A DNA stretch of 64,000 bases from Thiorhodospira sibirica ATCC 700588 (lineage in GTDB: Bacteria; Pseudomonadota; Gammaproteobacteria; Ectothiorhodospirales; Ectothiorhodospiraceae). This document shows positions 5,358 through 51,107 of this stretch, piece after piece. The position numbers and the translations under genes were made by a program. Each line of letters begins with the position of its first letter. Position 1 is the stretch's first letter. The notes beneath the pieces were generated by a model. The model made no database searches. It had not been told where the DNA came from and saw only the letters and a list, made by a program, of their open reading frames with translations. Location of the stretch: the NCBI RefSeq assembly GCF_000227725.2, contig NZ_MU255056.1:368088-432087 (forward strand), read 5' to 3'.

Positions 5358-5729
5358 TTGAAAACCATTTTGTTGGTGGATGACTCCACAACTATCATTC
5401 TCAGTGTGAGTGAAATCATTACCAAGGCAGGCTATAAGGTTGCCAAGGCCTGTCATGGCGTTGATGCCCTGGGGCAGATCAAAAGCGGCGTCAAACCCGA
5501 TTTGATTATCACTGACCTGAATATGCCGCAGATGAATGGCATTGAATTTATCCGTGAGGTGCGCAAACTTCCGGGCTTTCGTTTCACGCCGATTTTGATG
5601 TTGACCACTGAATCACAGCAGGCCAAGCGCATGGAGGGCAAGGAGGCAGGAGCAACCGGCTGGCTGGTCAAGCCAATTTCCGGGCCGGATTTGCTCAAAA
5701 CCATCAAGCAGGTTTTGCCGGGTGCTTAG
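5358..5729 (+). CDS. CheY-like single-domain response regulator
   Basis: This free receiver domain of 123 residues has acidic residues VDDS (8-9), the phospho-acceptor Asp53 in ITDLNMPQMNG, a conserved Thr in MLTTES, and Lys in WLVKPIS. It has no output domain, so it should act by binding a partner, as CheY does. I chose TTG at 5358 because AAGGAG at 5345-5350 sits 7 bases before it; the other TTG at 5352 would be only 1 base away. The gene is followed 3 bases later by a chemoreceptor gene and then RsbR/S/T-like genes, so it is the likely phosphorelay partner of this island. No CheA is encoded nearby. Confidence 0.9.
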   Translation: MKTILLVDDSTTIILSVSEIITKAGYKVAKACHGVDALGQIKSGVKPDLIITDLNMPQMNGIEFIREVRKLPGFRFTPILMLTTESQQAKRMEGKEAGATGWLVKPISGPDLLKTIKQVLPGA

Positions 5730-5732
5730 GGC

Positions 5733-7028
5733 GTGTCTCCTCACTCAATGGACACAACGACAGCACGCACGTCGCCACCCGGCGATGAGTTTATTCATTC
5801 GGGCTATCGCCAGCTGTCCCTGGCGCGGCGTCATCTGATTTTGAGCACAGTGCTGGCGGCCTCGGTGATCTGGTTTTTGCAGTATTTTACCGCCGATTTT
5901 CTGGCCTGGCTGGCGCAGTATTTGGGGATCAGTGCGCGATTTGTCAGCGCCACGGTGATCTCCGCAAGCTTTGTGGTGGTGGCCTTTGCGATCAGTTATC
6001 TGTTTATGCGCTCAAGCCTGGGCGCTTTGGGGGAACTGGCCAGAAGTACCACCAGCACCTTGCATTATGTCGGCCAGCTGGAGGAAAAATGCAGCGTCGT
6101 CAGTGAATGCCTGGAAGACAGCGCCCAGCTTGATGAGGTGTTCAGCCGTAATTTGCAGCGGGTGATTGAGGAAACCGAACAGGCCTCGGTGGATATCGTC
6201 AAACGGGTGCAACAGCTGGATAGAATTGCCTCGGAACTGGTCGGTTATCTGAATCGCGCTGATCTGGACACCACCGATATGCAAGATGAGATCCAAAAAA
6301 GCACCGACATCATCGAGCGCATTGGCCAGTTTATGCAGCGTTTGCCGGAAAAAATCGAGGAAGACCGGCAGAGTATGCGCGCCATTGTCGATGAAATCAG
6401 TCAGATGGATGGCATGGCCGAGGTGATCAAATCCATCAGCGAGCAGACCAATTTACTGGCGCTCAACGCGGCGATTGAGGCCGCCCGCGCGGGTGAACAT
6501 GGGCGCGGTTTTGCGGTGGTAGCGGATGAGGTGCGTACCTTGGCGGTGCGTGCGACCCAGGCGGCAGAAACCATTCAGCATACGATCAAAAGCGCGCAGC
6601 AAACGGTGTATGTCAACTTTGAAAAAGGCACTGACCGCCATGCGCAGGAGGAATTGCGCGAGGCCTCCTCGGTGCTGGAGTCGATTCACCGCCTGCAGGA
6701 AAGCTATGAAGACATGAAGCAGTTTTATAAAACGCTGCTTACCGTCACACGCCAGCATAACAGTGATCTGGCAGAACAGATTGTCAATGCACTCGGGTCT
6801 TTGCAGTTTCAGGATATCGTGCGCCAACGCCTGGAGCGCATGCAATATGCACTGACGCAGCGCGATATCGCCTTGCGTCGTTTAGCCACTGAAGTCACCG
6901 AGCCGGGCTTATTAAACATGGATAATTTTGCCATTCTGGCACAACTGAATCAGGAATACGAAAGGGCGGAAAAAAGTCATGGCATGGACGATGCGCAAGA
7001 CGACGGCCCACCAATCCAGCTTTTTTGA
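5733..7028 (+). CDS. Methyl-accepting chemotaxis protein without sensor domain
   Basis: This chemoreceptor-like protein has two closely spaced membrane segments (about 34-52 and 71-93) and no room for a periplasmic sensor domain. A coiled coil follows, with the conserved hairpin tip (about 232-270) containing [20 protein letters not shown] and [15 protein letters not shown]. This tip normally binds CheA and CheW. No clear HAMP domain is visible. The last residues are PPIQLF, resembling the VELF ends of CheD and the second receptor in this window. The start is GTG 5733 or ATG 5748, and neither has a strong ribosome site. Its place between a CheY-like gene and a stressosome set suggests that it feeds signals into that set. 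Confidence 0.88.
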
Positions 7029-7049
7029 TCCTTAAAGTGATTTGAATCA

Positions 7050-7937
7050 ATGACTATGAAACCTGATGCCTTTCAACGTGTATTGGTGGAAATCTTGCAC
7101 AGTCAGCATGATCAGCTTGTGAATCGCTGGCTGTCTGAGGTGCATGCCGATGAGTCGCCGCCGGGCAATCTAAGCGGCAATGCCTATCGCGATCTCTTGC
7201 GCCAGCATGCTACCCGTATCCTGCAAGAATTAGCCCAAACCTTAAGCGACAATGCCCACGACTGGCGCCTGGAGTACTATCCGCATTTTTGCCAGGTACT
7301 GCGTGAAATCAGCGCCCAGCAGGCCAAGCAGGGCTTTTCCCCCACCAAGAGCACCCATTGGATCCTGGGGCTGAAAAAAGCCCTGCAGGTGGCGTTAAAC
7401 GAACAGCTCGTCGGACAGGGCGAGGCGCTGATGCTGGCCATTAAGAGCCTGGATCAGATTGTTGACAGCATGTTGGTGTTTGTCATCAATTCCTTTGTTG
7501 AAGCCCGCGAGAAGGTCATCTTGCAGCAAAGCATCGCCTTGATGGAGCAGTCCATCCCGGTGGTGCGGGTGTGGAACCGCATCTTGATGATGACCCTGAT
7601 CGGGGTGATCGACACCCAGCGGGCGCGCCAATTAACCGAACGCCTGCTGGAAAATGTCTCCAAAACGGAGGCTTTGGTGACGATCATTGATGTGACCGGG
7701 GTGCCGGTGCTGGATACCAGTGTGGCCGGGCACTTATTGAAAACCATTGCCGCTGCAAATATGCTGGGCACCCAGGTGATCATGACCGGTATCAATCCCG
7801 AAGGCGCCCAAACCCTGGTTAAACTGGGTATCAACTTTCCCGACATCACCACCCGCGCCACCTTGCGTTCCGGGCTGGCGGAGGCGCTGCGCATGATCGG
7901 TTATCAGGTGATTCCCCTGCAGCAAGGCACGCATTGA
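7050..7937 (+). CDS. rsbR: RsbR-like stressosome protein (RsbRD_N + STAS)
   Basis: The protein (295 residues) pairs a helical N-terminal RsbRD-type sensor region (about 1-150) with a C-terminal STAS domain. The STAS part keeps both threonines that RsbT phosphorylates in Bacillus RsbR: Thr189 in GVIDTQRA and Thr223 in PVLDTSVAG, spaced 34 residues as in B. subtilis (171/205). In stressosomes RsbR and RsbS form a large shell that holds the kinase RsbT until stress releases it. The stop shares one base with the start of the RsbS gene. The input of the N-terminal region is unknown; the adjacent receptor is a candidate. Confidence 0.88.
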   Translation: MTMKPDAFQRVLVEILHSQHDQLVNRWLSEVHADESPPGNLSGNAYRDLLRQHATRILQELAQTLSDNAHDWRLEYYPHFCQVLREISAQQAKQGFSPTKSTHWILGLKKALQVALNEQLVGQGEALMLAIKSLDQIVDSMLVFVINSFVEAREKVILQQSIALMEQSIPVVRVWNRILMMTLIGVIDTQRARQLTERLLENVSKTEALVTIIDVTGVPVLDTSVAGHLLKTIAAANMLGTQVIMTGINPEGAQTLVKLGINFPDITTRATLRSGLAEALRMIGYQVIPLQQGTH

Positions 7938-8353
7938 TGAGAATTCCCATCCTGAGACTGGGTAATATCCTGCTCACCTCCATTCAGGTCGATCTGACCG
8001 ATGAGGATGTGATGCTGTTTCAAAATGATGTGGTCAACGAGGTCTCGCGCACCGAGGCGATGGGCCTGGCCATTGATATCACCGCCCTGGAAATTGTCGA
8101 TTCCTTTATGGCGCGGGTGATCAATGATACGGCGAATATGGCGCGATTGCTGGGCGCTGAGGTAGTGGTGTGCGGGATTCAACCCACTGTGGCGATGACC
8201 TTGGTGGAAATGGGGCGGGGGCTTTTGGGGGCACAAAGCACCTTCAATCTGGAGCAGGGCCTAATTGTGCTGCGTCAGCGGATTGTACAACGCGCGGATT
8301 TATGGGCCTTCGACGACGATGAGCGAAGCCGTGACCGGCCATTCAATTTTTAG
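7937..8353 (+). CDS. rsbS: RsbS-like stressosome scaffold (STAS)
   Basis: This single STAS domain of 138 residues contains the RsbS signature ITALEIVDSFMARVI. Ser56 corresponds to the RsbT target Ser59 of B. subtilis. The function known from the family is to complete the stressosome core and sequester RsbT. The ATG at 7937 overlaps the rsbR stop (TGATG) and is preferred over the TTG at 7934. The 3' end overlaps the RsbT gene by 35 bases, indicating tight coupling. The order R-S-T matches known stressosome operons. Confidence 0.9.
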   Translation: MRIPILRLGNILLTSIQVDLTDEDVMLFQNDVVNEVSRTEAMGLAIDITALEIVDSFMARVINDTANMARLLGAEVVVCGIQPTVAMTLVEMGRGLLGAQSTFNLEQGLIVLRQRIVQRADLWAFDDDERSRDRPFNF

Positions 8354-8753
8354 TATTGAGATCACTGATCCCAGTGATGTCGTCAGTGCGCGCAGCAAAG
8401 CGCGTGAAATCGCTGCCGGGCTTGGCCTGGGTAGCGCAGATCAAACGCGGCTGGCCACCGCCATCTCCGAGATCACCCGTAACGTCATTCAATATGCCGG
8501 ACCAGGCGGCGGCGTGTGCCGTTTATTTGATGAATCGGATAATGAATGGATTCGTATTCGCATTGAGGTCGAGGACTGGGGCATTGGCATCACCGATGTC
8601 GTTGCTGCCCTGCGCGATGGCTATTCCACCGGCGGCGGTCTGGGGGCGGGGTTGCCCGGTGCCCGGCGCTTGATGGATCAGTTTGATATCCAGTCACATC
8701 CGGGCTGCACCAAGGTGGAGATGAGCATGATCCGCCGCCGACATCACGGCTAA
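8319..8753 (+). CDS. rsbT: RsbT-like serine/threonine kinase
   Basis: This GHKL-fold kinase of 144 residues phosphorylates RsbS and RsbR and, once released, acts on a downstream partner. Visible motifs are the N-box ISEITRNVIQYAG (about 50-61), the G1 box EDWGIGI (85-91) and the glycine-rich lid STGGGLGAGLPGARR (103-117). The ATG at 8319 is the first start consistent with the family; the frame stays open to 8265. No RsbU or RsbX phosphatase gene follows, so the output is not local. The neighbouring minus-strand gene is an HDOD protein. A REC-PP2C protein at 49.3 kb is one possible remote partner, but that is speculation. Confidence 0.9.
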   Translation: MSEAVTGHSIFSIEITDPSDVVSARSKAREIAAGLGLGSADQTRLATAISEITRNVIQYAGPGGGVCRLFDESDNEWIRIRIEVEDWGIGITDVVAALRDGYSTGGGLGAGLPGARRLMDQFDIQSHPGCTKVEMSMIRRRHHG

Positions 8754-8770: not shown

Positions 8771-9637
8771 TTAGGTAAACAACTGGCTGACCTGTTGCAA
8801 TAAGGCCGCGTCTTCATCCCAGTGCAATTCCGGGTCGGCGGCGGTGCAGCCCAGGCGGCGCAGGGCGGGGATCTCGGCGCGGTTAAGCCGGGCCAGTGGG
8901 TGGTTTGCATGGGCGCGGTAGCTTTCGATGTTGGCGGCCTGCACAATATCCACATAATCAATCGGCGCATCAGGCCCCGGATCGCGTTGCAGGCGGTCAT
9001 GTTCAGCCGCGACACTCACCAGTACCGGGGCAAAACGCCAGGCATTCAAAATGGCCTTGCCCAGCGGCGCATGCACCGCGCCGATGATCGCCGCAAGACT
9101 GGCCTCATGCTGTAAAATCGCCTCGTGATCTTTGGCCCGGTCGAGAATGGGGATAATCCCGACATCATGCACCAGGCCCCCCAGTAGGGCTGTTTCCGGG
9201 TCAAGATGCGGATAGCGCAAGGCCAGCAACATGCTCAGCATCGCCACCTCCACGCTATGACTCCACAAGGTTTCCATGCGACGGAGAATCCCCTCATGAC
9301 CGGTGTCAAAAACCTCTTTCATGGCCAGCGCCAGTAAAAGGTGCTTGGTTTTTCCCAGCCCTAAGCGGGTGATGGCCGATTTGATCGTGCTACAGGGGCT
9401 CACCCCGCGAAACACCGGGCTGTTGGCATAGCGCACCACCCGCGCCGCCATTGAGGCATCACGCATCACCAACGCAGCCACATCGTCGATGGTGGTATCG
9501 TCACAATTGACGGTAAACAGGGCCTGCACCGAAATATCGGGTAAGGTCGGCAGGCGCAGGCGCTGGCTGCGCATATCCTCCCGCAAACTGGCCACAAACA
9601 GGTCTACCGTATGTTTCAGCGATTGCTCAGTATTCAT
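8771..9637 (-). CDS. HDOD-domain signalling protein
   Basis: The protein (288 residues) carries an HDOD domain, a degenerate HD fold found in bacterial signalling proteins. It spans most of the length from LPTLPDISVQALFTVNCDD to FAPVLVSVAAEHD. LGGLVHDVGIIPIL retains an HD pair, but the rest of the HD-GYP signature is absent, so hydrolase activity is doubtful. HDOD proteins often occur beside chemotaxis or c-di-GMP genes. It converges on the RsbT gene with only 17 bases between stops, and its start lies 26 bases from the divergent tadA start. Its role in the stressosome island is unproven. Confidence 0.85.
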   Translation of the reverse strand: MNTEQSLKHTVDLFVASLREDMRSQRLRLPTLPDISVQALFTVNCDDTTIDDVAALVMRDASMAARVVRYANSPVFRGVSPCSTIKSAITRLGLGKTKHLLLALAMKEVFDTGHEGILRRMETLWSHSVEVAMLSMLLALRYPHLDPETALLGGLVHDVGIIPILDRAKDHEAILQHEASLAAIIGAVHAPLGKAILNAWRFAPVLVSVAAEHDRLQRDPGPDAPIDYVDIVQAANIESYRAHANHPLARLNRAEIPALRRLGCTAADPELHWDEDAALLQQVSQLFT

Positions 9638-45038: not shown

Positions 45039-45059
45039 GCGACACCGTTGCGGTGTCGC
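45039..45059. repeat. Hairpin repeat, copy 8
   Basis: A perfect 8-bp stem GCGACACC/GGTGTCGC with loop GTTGC lies between the ACT gene and cheR. The second half of the double unit is missing. Confidence 0.75.
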
Positions 45060-45100
45060 GGTGCGTTGAGCAGGCAACTATTTCATTAAGGCACAAACGG

Positions 45101-45973
45101 ATGGCAGCAACCGCCCCTAACCCGATGTCTGAGCAAACCCCCTATGCCAGCACAAAAAATGAATTTGAGCTGACGGATAAAGACTTTGACTTTGTGGTGC
45201 GCTTTATTGCCGAACATGCGGGTATCTCGCTGACCCAGGCCAAGCGCCAGATGGTCTATGGGCGCTTGGTGCGCCGTCTGCGGGCCCTGGGGCTGCAACA
45301 GTTTTCCGATTATTGTGCCTTGCTGGAAGACCCCGACAGCGGTGAGGTGGAAAATTTCGTCAATGCCCTGACCACGAACCTGACGGCGTTTTTCCGTGAA
45401 CCGCATCATTTTGAGTTTCTCGCCCAGGAACTCTTGCCCCGGCTGGTCAATGAGCGCCCCCAGCGGCGCATCCGGGTGTGGTCGGCAGGCTGTTCAACCG
45501 GCGAGGAGCCGTATTCACTGGCGATGGTACTGGCAGAGAACCTGCCCGCCAGTTGGGATATCCGCATTCTGGCCACCGATCTGGACTCCAATGTAATCAG
45601 TACAGCCTCTGCCGGGGTTTATCCGCTGGAACGCCTGGGCAAGCTGGAAGCCGTGCGCATGAAGCGCTGGTTTTTGCAGGGCAAGGGGCGCAATACCGGC
45701 ATGGTGAAGGTGCGCCCGGCGCTGCGCAAGCTGATCACCTTTCGGCAGCTCAACCTTTTAGGGAGCTGGCCGATGCAGCAAGCCTTTGATGTGATTTTTT
45801 GCCGCAACGTGGTGATTTATTTTACCAAGGATACCCAGCGTGGCCTGTTCAACCGGTTTGCCGATCAGCTGCACCCGGAAGGACATCTGTTTGTCGGGCA
45901 TTCCGAATCGCTGTTTAAGGTGTGTGAGCGTTTCCGTCCGCTGGGCGGTACCATCTATCAAAGAATTCTCTGA
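45101..45973 (+). CDS. cheR: Chemotaxis methyltransferase CheR
   Basis: CheR methylates glutamates of chemoreceptors with S-adenosylmethionine. An N-terminal helical domain (about 20-90; GISLTQAKRQMVYGRLVRRLRALG) precedes the SAM-dependent domain with IRVWSAGCSTGEEPYSLAM, LATDLDSNVI and FDVIFCRNVVIYF. I use ATG 45101; ATG 45125 is possible, and the longer frame to 45053 reads through a hairpin. The stop overlaps the cheD start (TGATG). It is the first gene of the second signalling island. No chemoreceptor CheR-binding pentapeptide is seen on the nearby receptor. Confidence 0.94.
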   Translation: MAATAPNPMSEQTPYASTKNEFELTDKDFDFVVRFIAEHAGISLTQAKRQMVYGRLVRRLRALGLQQFSDYCALLEDPDSGEVENFVNALTTNLTAFFREPHHFEFLAQELLPRLVNERPQRRIRVWSAGCSTGEEPYSLAMVLAENLPASWDIRILATDLDSNVISTASAGVYPLERLGKLEAVRMKRWFLQGKGRNTGMVKVRPALRKLITFRQLNLLGSWPMQQAFDVIFCRNVVIYFTKDTQRGLFNRFADQLHPEGHLFVGHSESLFKVCERFRPLGGTIYQRIL

Positions 45974-46638
45974 TGAACCATCCGCCCAGCTTTGGCAGCC
46001 GCGTCAATCCCAATGAGCCGCTGCCGCCGGCACTCCCCGGTTATGAAAAAATCAACCGTTACTGGGATCGGCTGCATGAACATTATGCCGCAAAGATCCT
46101 TCCCGGCGAGTATTATGTCACCAAAAACGCCGAGCTGATCACCACCGTCTTAGGCTCGTGTGTCTCGGCCTGTATTCGTGACCGTAAACTGGGGATTGGC
46201 GGCATGAATCATTTCATGTTGCCTCACAGTGAACGGGTGAATATCCATGACTGGGGCAGTTGTACCTGGTCGTCGGCTACCCGCTATGGCAGCTTTGCGA
46301 TGGAGCGGCTGATCAACGATATTCTCAAGCATGGCGGGCGGCGTGAAAACCTGGAGGTCAAGCTGTTTGGCGGTGGCCGTATTCTGGCGCAGATGACCGA
46401 TATCGGTCGTCAGAATATCAGTTTTGTGCGCGAATATGTGCGCGTTGAAGGCTTGAGCGTACTGGGTGAGGATCTGGGTGGCTTTCATCCGCGCAAGGTC
46501 GTGTTTTTCCCGCAAACCGGGCGGGTGCGCGTCAAACGCCTGCGTACCCTGCATAACGACACGATTATCCTGCGTGAAGTCGATTATATGGAAAAACTTG
46601 ATGAAAAGCCGATTCAAGGCGAAGTTGAATTATTCTAA
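45973..46638 (+). CDS. cheD: Chemoreceptor glutamine deamidase CheD
   Basis: CheD deamidates receptor glutamines. The active-site set is clear: TTVLGSCVSACIRD with the catalytic Cys, then GGMNHFMLPH with the His; FGGGRIL and RKVVFFPQTG also fit. An N-terminal extension of about 45 residues is proline- and charge-rich. The protein ends in QGEVELF, the same terminal peptide as the next receptor (QGSVELF). In Bacillus, CheD also binds CheC; no CheC is seen. It overlaps cheR by one base and precedes cheB by 9 bases. Confidence 0.93.
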   Translation: MNHPPSFGSRVNPNEPLPPALPGYEKINRYWDRLHEHYAAKILPGEYYVTKNAELITTVLGSCVSACIRDRKLGIGGMNHFMLPHSERVNIHDWGSCTWSSATRYGSFAMERLINDILKHGGRRENLEVKLFGGGRILAQMTDIGRQNISFVREYVRVEGLSVLGEDLGGFHPRKVVFFPQTGRVRVKRLRTLHNDTIILREVDYMEKLDEKPIQGEVELF

Positions 46639-46647
46639 GAGGGCTAT

Positions 46648-47721
46648 GTGGTTGTGAGGACCCCGATCCGTGTACTGATTGTTGATGATTCTGCCCTGAT
46701 TCGTCGCCTGCTCACCGAGATTTTGAGCAAGGCGGCAGATATTGAGGTCGTGGGCACCGCCACCGATCCCTATGTGGCCAGGGATCGCATCAAGCAGCTC
46801 AATCCTGATGTGTTGACCCTGGATGTGGAAATGCCGCGCATGGACGGCCTGACTTTTTTGCGCAATCTGATGCGGCTGCGGCCCATGCCGGTGGTGATGG
46901 TGTCTTCGCTGACGGAACAAGGCGCTGAAGTCACCATGCAGGCGCTGGAATTGGGGGCCATTGATTTTGTCACCAAGCCCAAGGTCGATGTGGCCCATTC
47001 CATCAATGATTATGCCGATGAACTGATCGAAAAAATCCGCACCGCCGCACGCGCCTCGGTACGCGCCCTGACCGCCCCGCACAGCCCCGCACCGCGCTAT
47101 AGCGCCGATGCGGTCTTGCCCAAAGCCACCGCCAGCAAGCATTGGCGTACCACCGATCGCATTTTTGCCATCGGCGCTTCCACCGGCGGCACGGAGGCGA
47201 TTAAAGAGGTATTATTAGGCCTGCCGCCGGATGCCCCCGGCACCGTGATTGCACAGCATATCCCCGCTGGATTTAGCGCCGCCTTTGCCGATCGCATGAA
47301 CCGCCAGACCAATCTTACGGTCAAGGAGGCCGAAGATGGCGATGTGGTGCGTCCGGGTCATGTTTTCATCGCCCCCGGTGGGCGTCATCTGCTGCTGGCG
47401 CGTGATGGTGCCCGCTATATCTGCCGCCTCAATGATGGCGAACCGGTGAACCGCCACCGTCCCAGTGTCGATGTCTTGTTTCGCTCCGTGGCACAGGCGG
47501 CCGGGATCAATGCCTGTGCGGCAATTCTGACCGGCATGGGCAATGACGGCGCGCAGGGCCTGAAAGAGTTGCATGACCTCGGCGTTTACACCGTGGCCCA
47601 GGATGAGGCTTCCAGCGTGGTCTGGGGCATGCCGGGCGAGGCAGTAAAACTCGGTGCCGTCAATGAGGTATTGCCGCTGCAGCGCGTGGCCACCGCCCTG
47701 CTCAAGGCGGTCAAGGCTTAA
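46648..47721 (+). CDS. cheB: Protein-glutamate methylesterase CheB
   Basis: CheB removes receptor methyl groups when phosphorylated. A receiver domain (about 6-125; VDDSALIRR, Asp59 in [12 protein letters not shown]) is joined by a linker to a C-terminal methylesterase. The catalytic triad is Ser in [11 protein letters not shown], His in [10 protein letters not shown] and Asp in [12 protein letters not shown]. The length (357) is normal. Start GTG 46648; GTG 46654 is equally near a ribosome site (GAGGG 46639-46643). CheA, which would phosphorylate it, is not in the window. Confidence 0.95.
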
Positions 47722-47759
47722 CCGCGTCGCACCCACGGTATGCCCCCGCGCAATGACGG

Positions 47760-47780
47760 GTGACACCTTTCCGGTATCGC
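47760..47780. repeat. Degenerate hairpin repeat, copy 9
   Basis: GTGACACC is paired with GGTATCGC at 6 of 8 positions. It lies in the gap between cheB and the receptor gene, the usual placement of this family. Weak on its own. Confidence 0.4.
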
Positions 47781-47831
47781 GTTTATTCGGTAGCATGGCG
47801 AAACAGCCCAAAACAAAGGTCTTAGGTCTAC

Positions 47832-48998
47832 ATGGATAAAAGCAATACACAGTGCCTGTTATGGAGCTGGATCGCCTTGGTATTAGCGGCAAGTATCGGC
47901 GTAATGGCCCTATTGGCATTTAATTGGTTGCAAGTTGGTATTAGTCTATTACTTTTGGCGGCCTTAACCCTGGCCTTGCGCCGTCAGGCGGACCCCGAAT
48001 GTCACCATCAGAGCGCCCAGCAGGTGCACGAGGAACAGCAGGAACGCCGTTTGTGTATGGCCACACTCAACAGCCTTGATGCCGCGCTGGGGGAAGAAGT
48101 CAAGGAAATCGAGGCCGATATTGCCTCGGTACGCGGGATGCTCATCGATGCAGTGCGTGAATTATCCACCAGTTTTAATCGTCTGCACGAGCTGAGCAGT
48201 CGCCAGGCCAGCATTGTGATGGACGGCTTGCAGGCCGAAAACCACGAAGGCCACACGCATTCTAACTTCATGAGCGCCTTTGCCCAGGAATCCGCCGATG
48301 TCTTGCAGGATTTTGTCGATATGCTGGTACAGGTCAGTAAACTCAGCGTGCAAACTGCCCACCAGATGGATGATATGCTGACGCACATTAACGGCATCTT
48401 TCATTTGCTGGAGCAATCCCGCAACCTGGCCGAACAAACCAATCTGCTGGCGCTCAATGCCAGCATTGAGGCGGCGCGCGCTGGCGAGGCCGGGCGCGGT
48501 TTTGCCGTGGTTGCCGATGAGGTGCGCAAACTGTCTGCGCATTCCAATGCTTTTAATGAGAAAATCAAGGTGAGCGTGGATGAGGCGCGCCGCTCCGTGG
48601 CGGAAATGCAAAAATCGGTTCATGCCATTGCCTCGCAGGATATGAATTCTGTTTTGCGCGAAAAAGAACGCATCCAGAAAAGCTTTGATCTGGCCGAACA
48701 GATGACCCAACGGGTGGACAACAGCCTTAACGAGATTCAGGAAGTCGGCCATGAGCTCGACCAAGCTGTAGCCGATGCGGTGCGCGCCTTGCAGTTTGAA
48801 GATATGTCCACCCAATCGCTGGCCTGCGCCGCCCGCAGCATTGAGCGCATAAAATTACTGCGTACCGCCCTGGCCAATAGCGCCGATGATCACAGCCTGT
48901 CACAGCAGATCGAGGATTACCGTACACTGTGGAAAAATGAGCGCCACAAACCGGTGTCACAAAAAAACATGGATCAAGGTTCGGTAGAATTATTTTAG
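47832..48998 (+). CDS. Methyl-accepting chemotaxis protein without sensor domain
   Basis: A receptor-like protein of 388 residues with two nearly adjacent membrane helices (about 9-30 and 34-50) and no periplasmic domain. The cytoplasmic coiled coil contains the tip [21 protein letters not shown] and [18 protein letters not shown]. It ends QGSVELF, like CheD. No HAMP domain and no sensor domain are visible, so the stimulus must come from inside the cell, the membrane, or another protein. It sits after cheR-cheD-cheB and before partner-switching genes. It resembles the receptor at 5733 in layout. Confidence 0.9.
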
Positions 48999-49047
48999 GT
49001 AGCGTAGCATCCGCTTTTTTCAACACAGAACAGACGAGTATGAATAG

Positions 49048-49353
49048 ATGAGCATTGAACGTAGAGTGGAAGACAACGGCAAGCGTCTTGTCATCGTGAT
49101 TCAGGGGCGTTTTGATTTTTCCCAGCACAAGGCTTTTCGCGATGCCTACAAAGAACAAACGGGCAAAGTCCACGAGTATCTGATTGACCTAAGCGGTGCC
49201 AGCTATCTGGACAGCTCCGCCCTGGGAATGCTTTTGCTGCTGCGTGAGCGCGCCGGCGATGAAAATGCCAAGGTGTCCATCAAAGGGGCGACCTCCGAGG
49301 TGCGCCGGGTCCTGGATATCGCCAACTTTGGCCGTCTGTTTACGATTCTTTGA
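49048..49353 (+). CDS. STAS-domain anti-sigma factor antagonist
   Basis: A single STAS domain of 101 residues. The phosphorylatable serine site is YLDSSALGM, with Ser56 as the likely target, and DLSGASYLDSS matches SpoIIAA and HsbA. Such proteins bind an anti-sigma factor or a cyclase when unphosphorylated. Its stop overlaps the next gene's TTG start as TTGA, so it is translated with the kinase/phosphatase fusion that should modify it. The Pseudomonas HsbA-HsbR pair is the nearest known parallel. Confidence 0.9.
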   Translation: MSIERRVEDNGKRLVIVIQGRFDFSQHKAFRDAYKEQTGKVHEYLIDLSGASYLDSSALGMLLLLRERAGDENAKVSIKGATSEVRRVLDIANFGRLFTIL

Positions 49354-51107
49354 GCAAGCCTGTGCAGCCATCAACCACGCATCCCACTCCTGAAATGTCC
49401 GCAAAAGCGCCACGCGGCACGGCGATGATCGTTGACGATGAGGCTACCAATCGTCGTTTATTGGGCGCTGTGCTGGTGCGCGAGGGATTTCATTGTCTGC
49501 ATGCAGCCGATGGGGAAGAGGCCCTGGCAATTTTCACCCAGCAAACCCCAGACATTATCTTCATGGATGTGATGATGCCTGGCATCGACGGCTATGAAAC
49601 CACGCGGCGCATTCGTGAGGTGCTGTGCGGGCGGTTTATTCCGATCATCTTTCTCACCGCCTTAAGTGATGAGCAATCGCTGGTGCGCTGTATTGAGGCC
49701 GGCGGGGATGACTTTATCTCCAAACCCTTTAATCTGGCGATTCTCAAGGCGCGCATCGCTTCCATGGAGCGAGTGCGCGACCTCTACCGCCATCTGGAAT
49801 CGCAGCATGTTGAACTCAGTCAGCGCTATTCGCGTGAACAGCAGGAACAGGCCCTGGCGGAGCGGATTTTCAGCCATGTAGTGGGTACCCGTAATGTCGC
49901 CGTTGAATCACTGGGTTTTTTGCAGCGGGCGGCAGACACCTTTTGCGGGGACTTGATTTTAACCGCGCACTTGCCCGATGGCGGCTTGCGCATTCTGGTG
50001 GCCGATTTTACCGGGCACGGACTGGCGGCGGCGATTGGCGCCATGCCGGTGGCCGAGATCTTTCATGCGATGAGCGCCAAGGGGGTTGATGATCTGCTGC
50101 TGTTGGCCGAGCTTAATCGCAAACTCCACACCCTGCTCCCCGCAGACCGCTTTATGGCGGCTTGTCTGGTCTCCATCCCTGCTGATTTGCATGAATTACG
50201 CCTGTGGAATGGCGGTATGCCCCCTGCCCTGCTGGTCACTGCCCAGGGTTTGCAGGAATTTCACGCCAAGGCACTGCCGCTGGGCATTCTTGCGGAGCCC
50301 CCGGAAAAAGACAGCCTGATGCAGATTCCACTCAAAGGCGGAGAACGCCTGCTGCTGATGAGTGATGGCGTGCTGGAAGCGGTCGATGCGCAGGAACGGC
50401 TCTTTGTCGATACCACCTTCGATGGTCTTAAACAAGCGCTGGCCTCCAAGGAGGCGATGCTGCCTGCCTTGATTCATGCGCTGGATCAGCATTGCGGCCA
50501 TACCGTGCAAAGCGACGACATCACCGCCCTGGAAATCCCGATTGGCACCGACCTGATCAATCTCCCCGAAAAACACGAAAGGCATCACGCCCCCCCCCCC
50601 GGACAGGGAAGTTGGCATTGGTCTTTGGAGCTGTGTGACAGTTATCTGGGCGCGATGTCCTCGTTACAGGGCGCATTGGGTTCGCTCAAACTGCTCGACG
50701 GGCTGGAACCACATATCGGCGCGTTGGAAATCATCATCTCAGAGCTGTATACCAATGCGCTGGAACATGGCGTCCTGGGACTGGATTCGGCGATGAAATC
50801 CACCTCCAACGGCTTTGAACTGTACTATACCGAGCGCGCCAAACGCCTGCAGCAAGGCGTCAAGGGCTGTGTATTCATCGAACTGATTTATGAGCCGGTT
50901 GCTGCAGGGGGCTGCGTGAAGATTCGTCTGCGCGACTCAGGGCCTGGTTTTGCCGTCACGCAAGGGGGTTTCCCGGCACAAAACCTCAACCAGACCCCGG
51001 ATGCCAAGCGCCCGTGGGGGCGGGGTATCACCCTGGTGCGCAGTCTTTGTGAATCCATTCATTACAACCAGCAAGGCAACGAAGTGGAAGCGGTGTATCG
51101 CTGGTAA
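49350..51107 (+). CDS. Response regulator with PP2C phosphatase and ATPase (HsbR-like)
   Basis: A partner-switching regulator of 585 residues. Order: receiver (about 24-140; Asp73 in FMDVMMPGIDG), coiled linker (140-175), PP2C/SpoIIE phosphatase (about 190-400; metal Asp in FCGDL, VADFTGHG, LMSDG and SDDITAL), linker, and a C-terminal HATPase of the RsbW type (about 425-585; SELYTNALEHG, LRDSGPGF, WGRGITLV). It can both phosphorylate and dephosphorylate an STAS partner, here the gene just before. The linker HAPPPG is encoded by an 11-base C run. TTG start overlaps the STAS stop. Confidence 0.92.
   Translation: MSKPVQPSTTHPTPEMSAKAPRGTAMIVDDEATNRRLLGAVLVREGFHCLHAADGEEALAIFTQQTPDIIFMDVMMPGIDGYETTRRIREVLCGRFIPIIFLTALSDEQSLVRCIEAGGDDFISKPFNLAILKARIASMERVRDLYRHLESQHVELSQRYSREQQEQALAERIFSHVVGTRNVAVESLGFLQRAADTFCGDLILTAHLPDGGLRILVADFTGHGLAAAIGAMPVAEIFHAMSAKGVDDLLLLAELNRKLHTLLPADRFMAACLVSIPADLHELRLWNGGMPPALLVTAQGLQEFHAKALPLGILAEPPEKDSLMQIPLKGGERLLLMSDGVLEAVDAQERLFVDTTFDGLKQALASKEAMLPALIHALDQHCGHTVQSDDITALEIPIGTDLINLPEKHERHHAPPPGQGSWHWSLELCDSYLGAMSSLQGALGSLKLLDGLEPHIGALEIIISELYTNALEHGVLGLDSAMKSTSNGFELYYTERAKRLQQGVKGCVFIELIYEPVAAGGCVKIRLRDSGPGFAVTQGGFPAQNLNQTPDAKRPWGRGITLVRSLCESIHYNQQGNEVEAVYRW
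50590..50600 (+). repeat. Poly-C tract of 11 bases inside a gene
   Basis: Eleven consecutive C bases encode Ala-Pro-Pro-Pro in the linker between the phosphatase and ATPase domains. A loss or gain of one base would shift the frame and remove the ATPase domain. Tracts of this length slip readily in bacteria with phase variation. Confidence 0.95.

Follow-up and report, generated by a model that had tools for sequence, protein, structure and literature searches.

Gene order places a five-gene string of Thiorhodospira sibirica at the seam between an F9 chemosensory cluster and a stressosome cassette

Introduction

The closest described relatives of the system reported here include two signaling machines known from Vibrio. 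Gram-negative RSTX modules, as in V. vulnificus and V. brasiliensis, encode RsbR, RsbS, and RsbT in that order together with an RsbX-type phosphatase and a two-component output (PMC9237108, PMC4976288); the targets of Gram-negative stressosomes are poorly known, but an RsbU_N domain, present on some of the proteins encoded downstream, has been taken as the sign of an RsbT target (PMC9237108). A CheY-like protein has been noted alongside the stressosome genes of V. brasiliensis. F9 chemosensory arrays, exemplified by V. cholerae cluster I, whose products include the transmembrane receptor VC1394 (PMC7534058), are cytoplasmic and form under low oxygen or under starvation and stress; they have been seen by cryo-tomography, and what they sense or control is unknown (PMC7534058, PMC9321776). 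Their signature components are a DosM receptor with two signaling domains and a triple CheW protein (PMC9321776, PMC7534058), and DosM homologs lack sensor domains (PMC9321776). Here, we analyze a string of five genes, encoding a CheY-like receiver, a methyl-accepting chemotaxis protein (MCP), RsbR, RsbS, and RsbT, at positions 5358-8753 of a 64,000-nucleotide stretch of the Thiorhodospira sibirica genome (G000:C4:368088-432087; hereafter, the window; C4 coordinates are those of the same contig).

With its relatives considered, this locus resembles the RSTX modules in gene order, in its RsbX-type phosphatase, in its two-component output, and in RsbU_N, and differs from them in having no invariant heme histidine in RsbR, an additional RsbT (RsbT2), a complete F9 cluster joined to it, and, in the window's own genome, an RsbX gene at another locus. 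It shares with V. cholerae cluster I a DosM-type receptor, triple CheW, CheA, two CheYs, CheR, and CheB (PMC7534058, PMC9321776, PMC11940527), and a transmembrane receptor gene within the cluster (compare VC1394); unlike in V. cholerae, a stressosome cassette lies directly downstream. Chemosensory genes are likewise joined to partner-switching genes in the F7 stage-1 cluster with an anti-sigma antagonist and a serine phosphatase (PMC7184735); however, that cluster carries a STAS protein and a receiver-phosphatase, has no RsbR-RsbS-RsbT core, and contains another set of che genes. The Bacillus sigB operon encodes RsbR, RsbS, and RsbT with the same phosphorylation sites, but here genes for RsbU and sigma-B do not adjoin and RsbU_N sits on a histidine kinase. 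Our searches of the open-access literature turned up no account that links F9 systems with stressosomes, although Pane-Farre 2005 and 2017 (subscription articles cited in PMC9237108) may mention one. The supercluster described below connects F9 arrays with stressosomes through named candidate contacts, namely RsbT with an RsbU_N kinase and this kinase with a CheY-like or other receiver (REC) protein.

Results

Chemosensory and stressosome genes form one conserved cluster in relatives

To find related loci, 84,980 genomes were scanned with two peptide patterns derived from four close sequences, a design that favors near relatives and makes all counts lower bounds. At least 33 RsbS loci were retrieved. 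The string CheY-like-MCP-RsbR-RsbS is present in 20 of these 33 (in L058, the contig ends before RsbT), and CheA is encoded upstream in 19 of the 20, the remaining contig starting at the CheY-like gene. Since 20 loci besides that of the window show this order, the arrangement in the window is not due to chance, and the co-conservation of the two halves that the preliminary description had left to be checked is thereby established. Where the flanks suffice, the order reads CheW-CheB-HEAT-CheR-CheY-CheA-mini-STAS-CheY-like-MCP-RsbR-RsbS-RsbT-RsbT2-RsbX-histidine kinase-REC, often followed by ParA; genome G283 encodes the whole supercluster with a DosM-like receptor in front. The string occurs in Ectothiorhodospira, where the five genes are extended on both sides, and in Chromatiaceae, Methylobacter, Competibacteraceae, and metagenome-assembled genomes (MAGs), and the intact cluster is carried by Methylobacter, Allochromatium, and Marichromatium. 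Judged by gene order, the string is thus the seam between an F9 chemosensory cluster and an RSTX stressosome cassette.

The two halves also covary. Pairwise distances of RsbS and CheA correlate with an r of 0.92 across 19 taxa, a value to which shared species descent contributes. Distances of CheR and CheB, for which other copies in the window had stood in for its genome, were left out. Among 58 relatives, RsbS is found only in the window's own genome and in three Ectothiorhodospira genomes; mini-STAS and HEAT genes are found in exactly the same six genomes, which include these four (4 with both RsbS and mini-STAS, 2 with mini-STAS only, and 52 with neither). HEAT, mini-STAS, and ParA-like genes recur in the F9 clusters studied here.

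By composition, the chemosensory half belongs to the F9 class

The che block of the window's genome lies at C4:2676950-2686613. A DosM-like receptor that has a pair each of MCP hairpins and MCPsignal stretches (L036:9661-11613) and a concatenated triple CheW protein with three CheW stretches (L036:7790-9622) are F9 signature components, and we therefore place the che half in the F9 class, an assignment made on gene composition. The mini-STAS gene between CheA and the CheY-like gene encodes an 80-residue protein (L006:9818-10057 and relatives) with no match among Pfam and NCBIfam models. Its structural model (pLDDT 91) shows a short STAS fold, with STAS domains as the top matches, including RsbV (Z 9.0) and SpoIIAA (Z 8.3). 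The window's genome encodes its own copy at C4:1043610-1043834.

Layout of the string in the window

Pfam matches and open reading frames bear out the extent and composition of the string, all five genes of which lie on the plus strand. The stand-alone CheY-like receiver (5358-5729; Response_reg, 93 bits) starts at TTG with AAGGAG upstream and is followed after 3 nucleotides (nt) by the sensor-less MCP, here MCP1 (5733-7028; MCPsignal, 105 bits), and, 21 nt further, by RsbR (7050-7937; RsbRD_N, 52 bits, and STAS, 56 bits). The STAS scaffold protein RsbS (7937-8353; STAS) and the switch kinase RsbT (8319-8753; HATPase_c_2, 47 bits) complete the string. As first described, translational overlaps tie the last three genes: the RsbR-RsbS overlap measures 4 nt with an RsbS start at TTG 7934 and 1 nt with a start at ATG 7937, and RsbS shares 35 nt with RsbT, whose start is taken at ATG 8319. 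A convergent gene for an HDOD protein (8771-9637, minus strand; HDOD, 139 bits) marks the 3' boundary and lies outside the string. No promoter scored above shuffled sequences, and no terminator-like site was found in the interval between the UbiA and CheY-like genes. We dropped the notion of a self-contained five-gene operon, since in relatives these genes are the seam of a longer cluster.

RsbR, RsbS, and RsbT retain their functional sites

The string encodes, in order, an RsbR with a sensory N-terminal domain and a STAS domain, an RsbS consisting of STAS, and RsbT as a GHKL kinase. The best sequence matches of RsbR and RsbS in the PDB are chains of solved stressosomes (E values of 2e-30 and 1e-29). 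RsbR Thr189 and Thr223 and RsbS Ser56 (numbered from ATG 7937) align exactly with known phosphorylation sites and are kept in all relatives with residues at these positions (32 RsbR and 33 RsbS sequences). The N, G1, and G2 ATP boxes of RsbT are intact, as they are in 32 of 32 relatives with residues there. The retention of all of these sites, noted from the window alone, therefore extends to the relatives.

The AlphaFold2 model of RsbR combines a globin-like helical N-terminal domain with STAS. This domain matches RsbR-N (2bnl; Z 14.3, root mean square deviation [rmsd] 2.5 over 129 residues) and the globin domain of DosC (Z 13.7); the whole model matches Listeria RsbR (7b0u) with a Z of 20.2 and an rmsd of 8.0, the orientation of the domains being free. 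Heme sensing by RsbR was considered and rejected, as no histidine is invariant among 27 sequences; for the same reason, RsbR is likely a heme-free sensor.

The CheY-like protein and MCP1 are the end of the F9 cluster

The Asp pair, the phospho-acceptor Asp, and the Thr of the CheY-like protein are invariant in 23 sequences, and its C terminus reads QVLPG[AT] in 21 of the 23; it is probably the second of two CheYs that belong to the F9 cluster itself. MCP1 has two predicted transmembrane segments (Competibacteraceae members have none) and one canonical signaling hairpin; no ligand-binding domain was found with Pfam, and a sequence scan found no methylation-site consensus. Because F9 clusters ending in these two genes also occur without a stressosome, the CheY-like and MCP genes are the 3' end of the F9 cluster and not stressosome genes. 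The earlier interpretation is partly supported: its core idea, that array and stressosome belong together, has strong support from the conserved order and the distance correlation.

The C terminus of MCP1 reads [IF]ELF in all 20 linked loci and PIQLF in the window protein. In the window, CheD and both short MCPs end in [VI][EQ]LF (at 46638, 48998, and 7028), and this tail is possibly a docking peptide. In other receptors, a C-terminal pentapeptide tethers CheR and CheB; the MCP1 tail is reminiscent of it in place and spacing, a comparison that we offer as a guess. In Thiocystis violacea, a short open reading frame before RsbR (L071:8724-9050), at the usual place of the MCP, ends in RIDLF and is possibly an MCP remnant.

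The window's genome keeps the supercluster in scattered blocks

Parts of the supercluster are kept at four places on C4: the che block (2.68 Mb), mini-STAS (1.04 Mb), the string in the window, and RsbT2-RsbX with a histidine kinase (0.58 Mb). In the window, neither an RsbU nor an RsbX gene follows RsbT; RSTX modules have RsbX directly downstream of RsbT, while here the HDOD gene takes that place, and relatives encode RsbX behind RsbT2. Genes for RsbU, RsbV, RsbW, and sigma-B likewise do not stand behind RsbT in the window, and no genome-wide search for sigma-B was made. The preliminary description was thus correct that no phosphatase gene follows RsbT, but lack of a phosphatase was dropped as a feature of the system: the genome encodes an RsbX-like PP2C protein with its metal-binding aspartates (C4:582393-582992) and an RsbU_N kinase, both about 206 kb from the string.

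This histidine kinase (C4:577627-578664) contains RsbU_N (52 bits; cutoff, 25.5), HisKA, and HATPase_c, and RsbU_N was present in all 21 kinases scanned. In Bacillus, RsbT binds RsbU_N. By analogy, the kinase is likely the target of RsbT, and its domain content makes it a better candidate for this role than the chemotaxis component suggested earlier. Since it carries RsbU_N, the kinase, as judged by its domains, stands in for the missing RsbU.

Trees of CheA (support, 100) and of the RsbR-RsbS-RsbT (RST) block (support, 53) both place the window's genome beside Competibacteraceae and not with Ectothiorhodospira; this agreement speaks for a single supercluster as the source of both halves. Two Geobacteraceae MAGs (L075 and L076) group with Methylobacter in the trees of RST and of RsbT2-RsbX; they carry two RsbR genes and no adjoining che genes, and the cassette possibly reached them by lateral transfer.

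Discussion

A stressosome that may gate an F9 array

Since related bacteria encode both as one long gene cluster, the two signaling machines probably work together. Our preferred reading, to which we assign a probability of roughly 0.6, is that two modules meet in the string after evolving together as one supercluster and that the stressosome gates F9 output via the RsbU_N kinase. Gene content, gene order, intact active sites, the RsbU_N of the kinase, and co-inheritance are read directly from sequence. The non-heme, globin-like RsbR turret would sense an internal stress signal. By analogy with Bacillus biochemistry, RsbT held on the RsbR-RsbS core would phosphorylate RsbR Thr189 and Thr223 and RsbS Ser56, be released, bind the RsbU_N of the kinase, and switch the kinase on, and RsbX would reset the core. 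The following step and the direction of signaling are conjecture: the kinase may phosphorylate free receivers, either the REC of the cassette or the F9 CheY-like protein or both, and in this way the stressosome might gate the output of an array whose F9-encoded receptors have no recognized sensor domain.

Several observations weigh against this reading. F9 clusters without the cassette are present in G013, G018, G092, G182, and G381, and RST-RsbX-kinase cassettes without adjoining che genes occur in Desulfobacteraceae, Geobacteraceae, Magnetovibrio, Poribacteria, and others; the occurrence of each without the other means that coupling is not obligatory, strong as the link is. Co-occurrence of RsbS and mini-STAS gives Fisher P values of 4e-5 (58 relatives) and 1e-3 (369 genomes of the class), both of which ignore kinship and treat samples that are not independent. 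RsbT2-RsbX of the window's genome sits on a long, unresolved tree branch, so that this pair is perhaps not the one that first accompanied the RST block, and orthologs of the cassette REC and ParA were not identified in this genome.

Another explanation is that both modules are merely used under the same stress, such as low oxygen or stationary phase, and do not touch. The cassette comes with a kinase and a receiver of its own, it is absent from many F9 clusters, and within Ectothiorhodospira it was gained or lost at the MCP-ParA boundary (L162 and L161 versus L060, L063, and L072): G013 and G018 have ParA directly after the MCP gene, and three other genomes have seven genes, RsbR to REC, between them. 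Co-expression alone, however, does not predict that the seam from the CheY-like gene to RsbT should be the block that survives the breakup in the window's genome, and the adjacency is conserved across several families; we regard this explanation as unlikely, though worth keeping in mind. Signals could also run the other way, with the F9 array as the sensor and MCP1 or the phosphorylated CheY-like protein acting on RsbR or RsbT to activate the RsbU_N kinase. The CheY-like and MCP1 genes do immediately precede RsbR at every linked locus, and an RsbR without an invariant histidine for heme leaves its own signal unclear. MCP1, however, has neither a sensor domain nor a methylation consensus, DosM homologs are also sensor-less (PMC9321776), and it is RsbR that has a globin-like sensory domain, so that this direction appears doubtful to us. 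Very improbable is the idea that the window holds a nonworking remnant of a broken supercluster. A distance of 206 kb separates the string from RsbT2, RsbX, and the kinase, with neither REC nor ParA beside the kinase, and decay is seen elsewhere: transposases stand at the cassette's place in G266, and a truncated RsbX, a histidine kinase, and a REC are all that is left in G234 (L166:2100-7500 and L165:10188-11563 for the two cases). Yet in the window all five frames are open, catalytic and phosphorylation residues are kept, the overlaps are intact, and the other blocks have been retained.

Photoactive yellow protein at the RsbX-kinase block

The block that holds the kinase (G000:C4:577627-584871; L034 and L046) comprises, all on one strand, genes for an HDOD protein, RsbT2, RsbX, photoactive yellow protein (PYP), a 4-coumarate-CoA-ligase-like protein, an aromatic ammonia lyase, and the RsbU_N kinase; a HAMP-MCP gene lies further upstream. 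PYP, encoded between RsbX and the kinase together with the ligase-like and lyase genes for its chromophore, matches TIGR02373 with 192 bits, and the best match of the ligase-like protein is TIGR02372 at 316 bits, just below the cutoff of 334.7. Gaps of 223 nt before the PYP gene and of about 230 nt between the lyase and kinase genes make a single transcript uncertain.

The partners that relay PYP signals are an acknowledged gap, to which this genome adds a lead. In a survey from 2025 that covers 113 pyp operons, the partners named are kinases, GGDEF/EAL proteins, and MCPs; phosphatase, STAS, and Rsb terms do not appear in its text (PMC12826048). Of seven PYP loci whose flanks we read, only that of the window's genome has RsbT2- or RsbX-like neighbors, so that the association is a single case; a general link between PYP and stressosomes was rejected. 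The genes of the block are candidate signaling partners of PYP. Tentatively, the F9 arrays of these bacteria might be stress devices to which the stressosome supplies or gates a signal through a shared receiver, with blue light entering through PYP in the window's genome.

An F7-like gene set in the same window

At positions 45053-51107, the window also encodes CheR, CheD, CheB, a short MCP, a STAS protein, and a REC/PP2C/HATPase protein, a set that matches the latter half of the F7 stage-1 cluster as published. The half that precedes it there, STAS-CheY-CheA-CheW, is apparently located at C4:1359.8-1363.5 kb.

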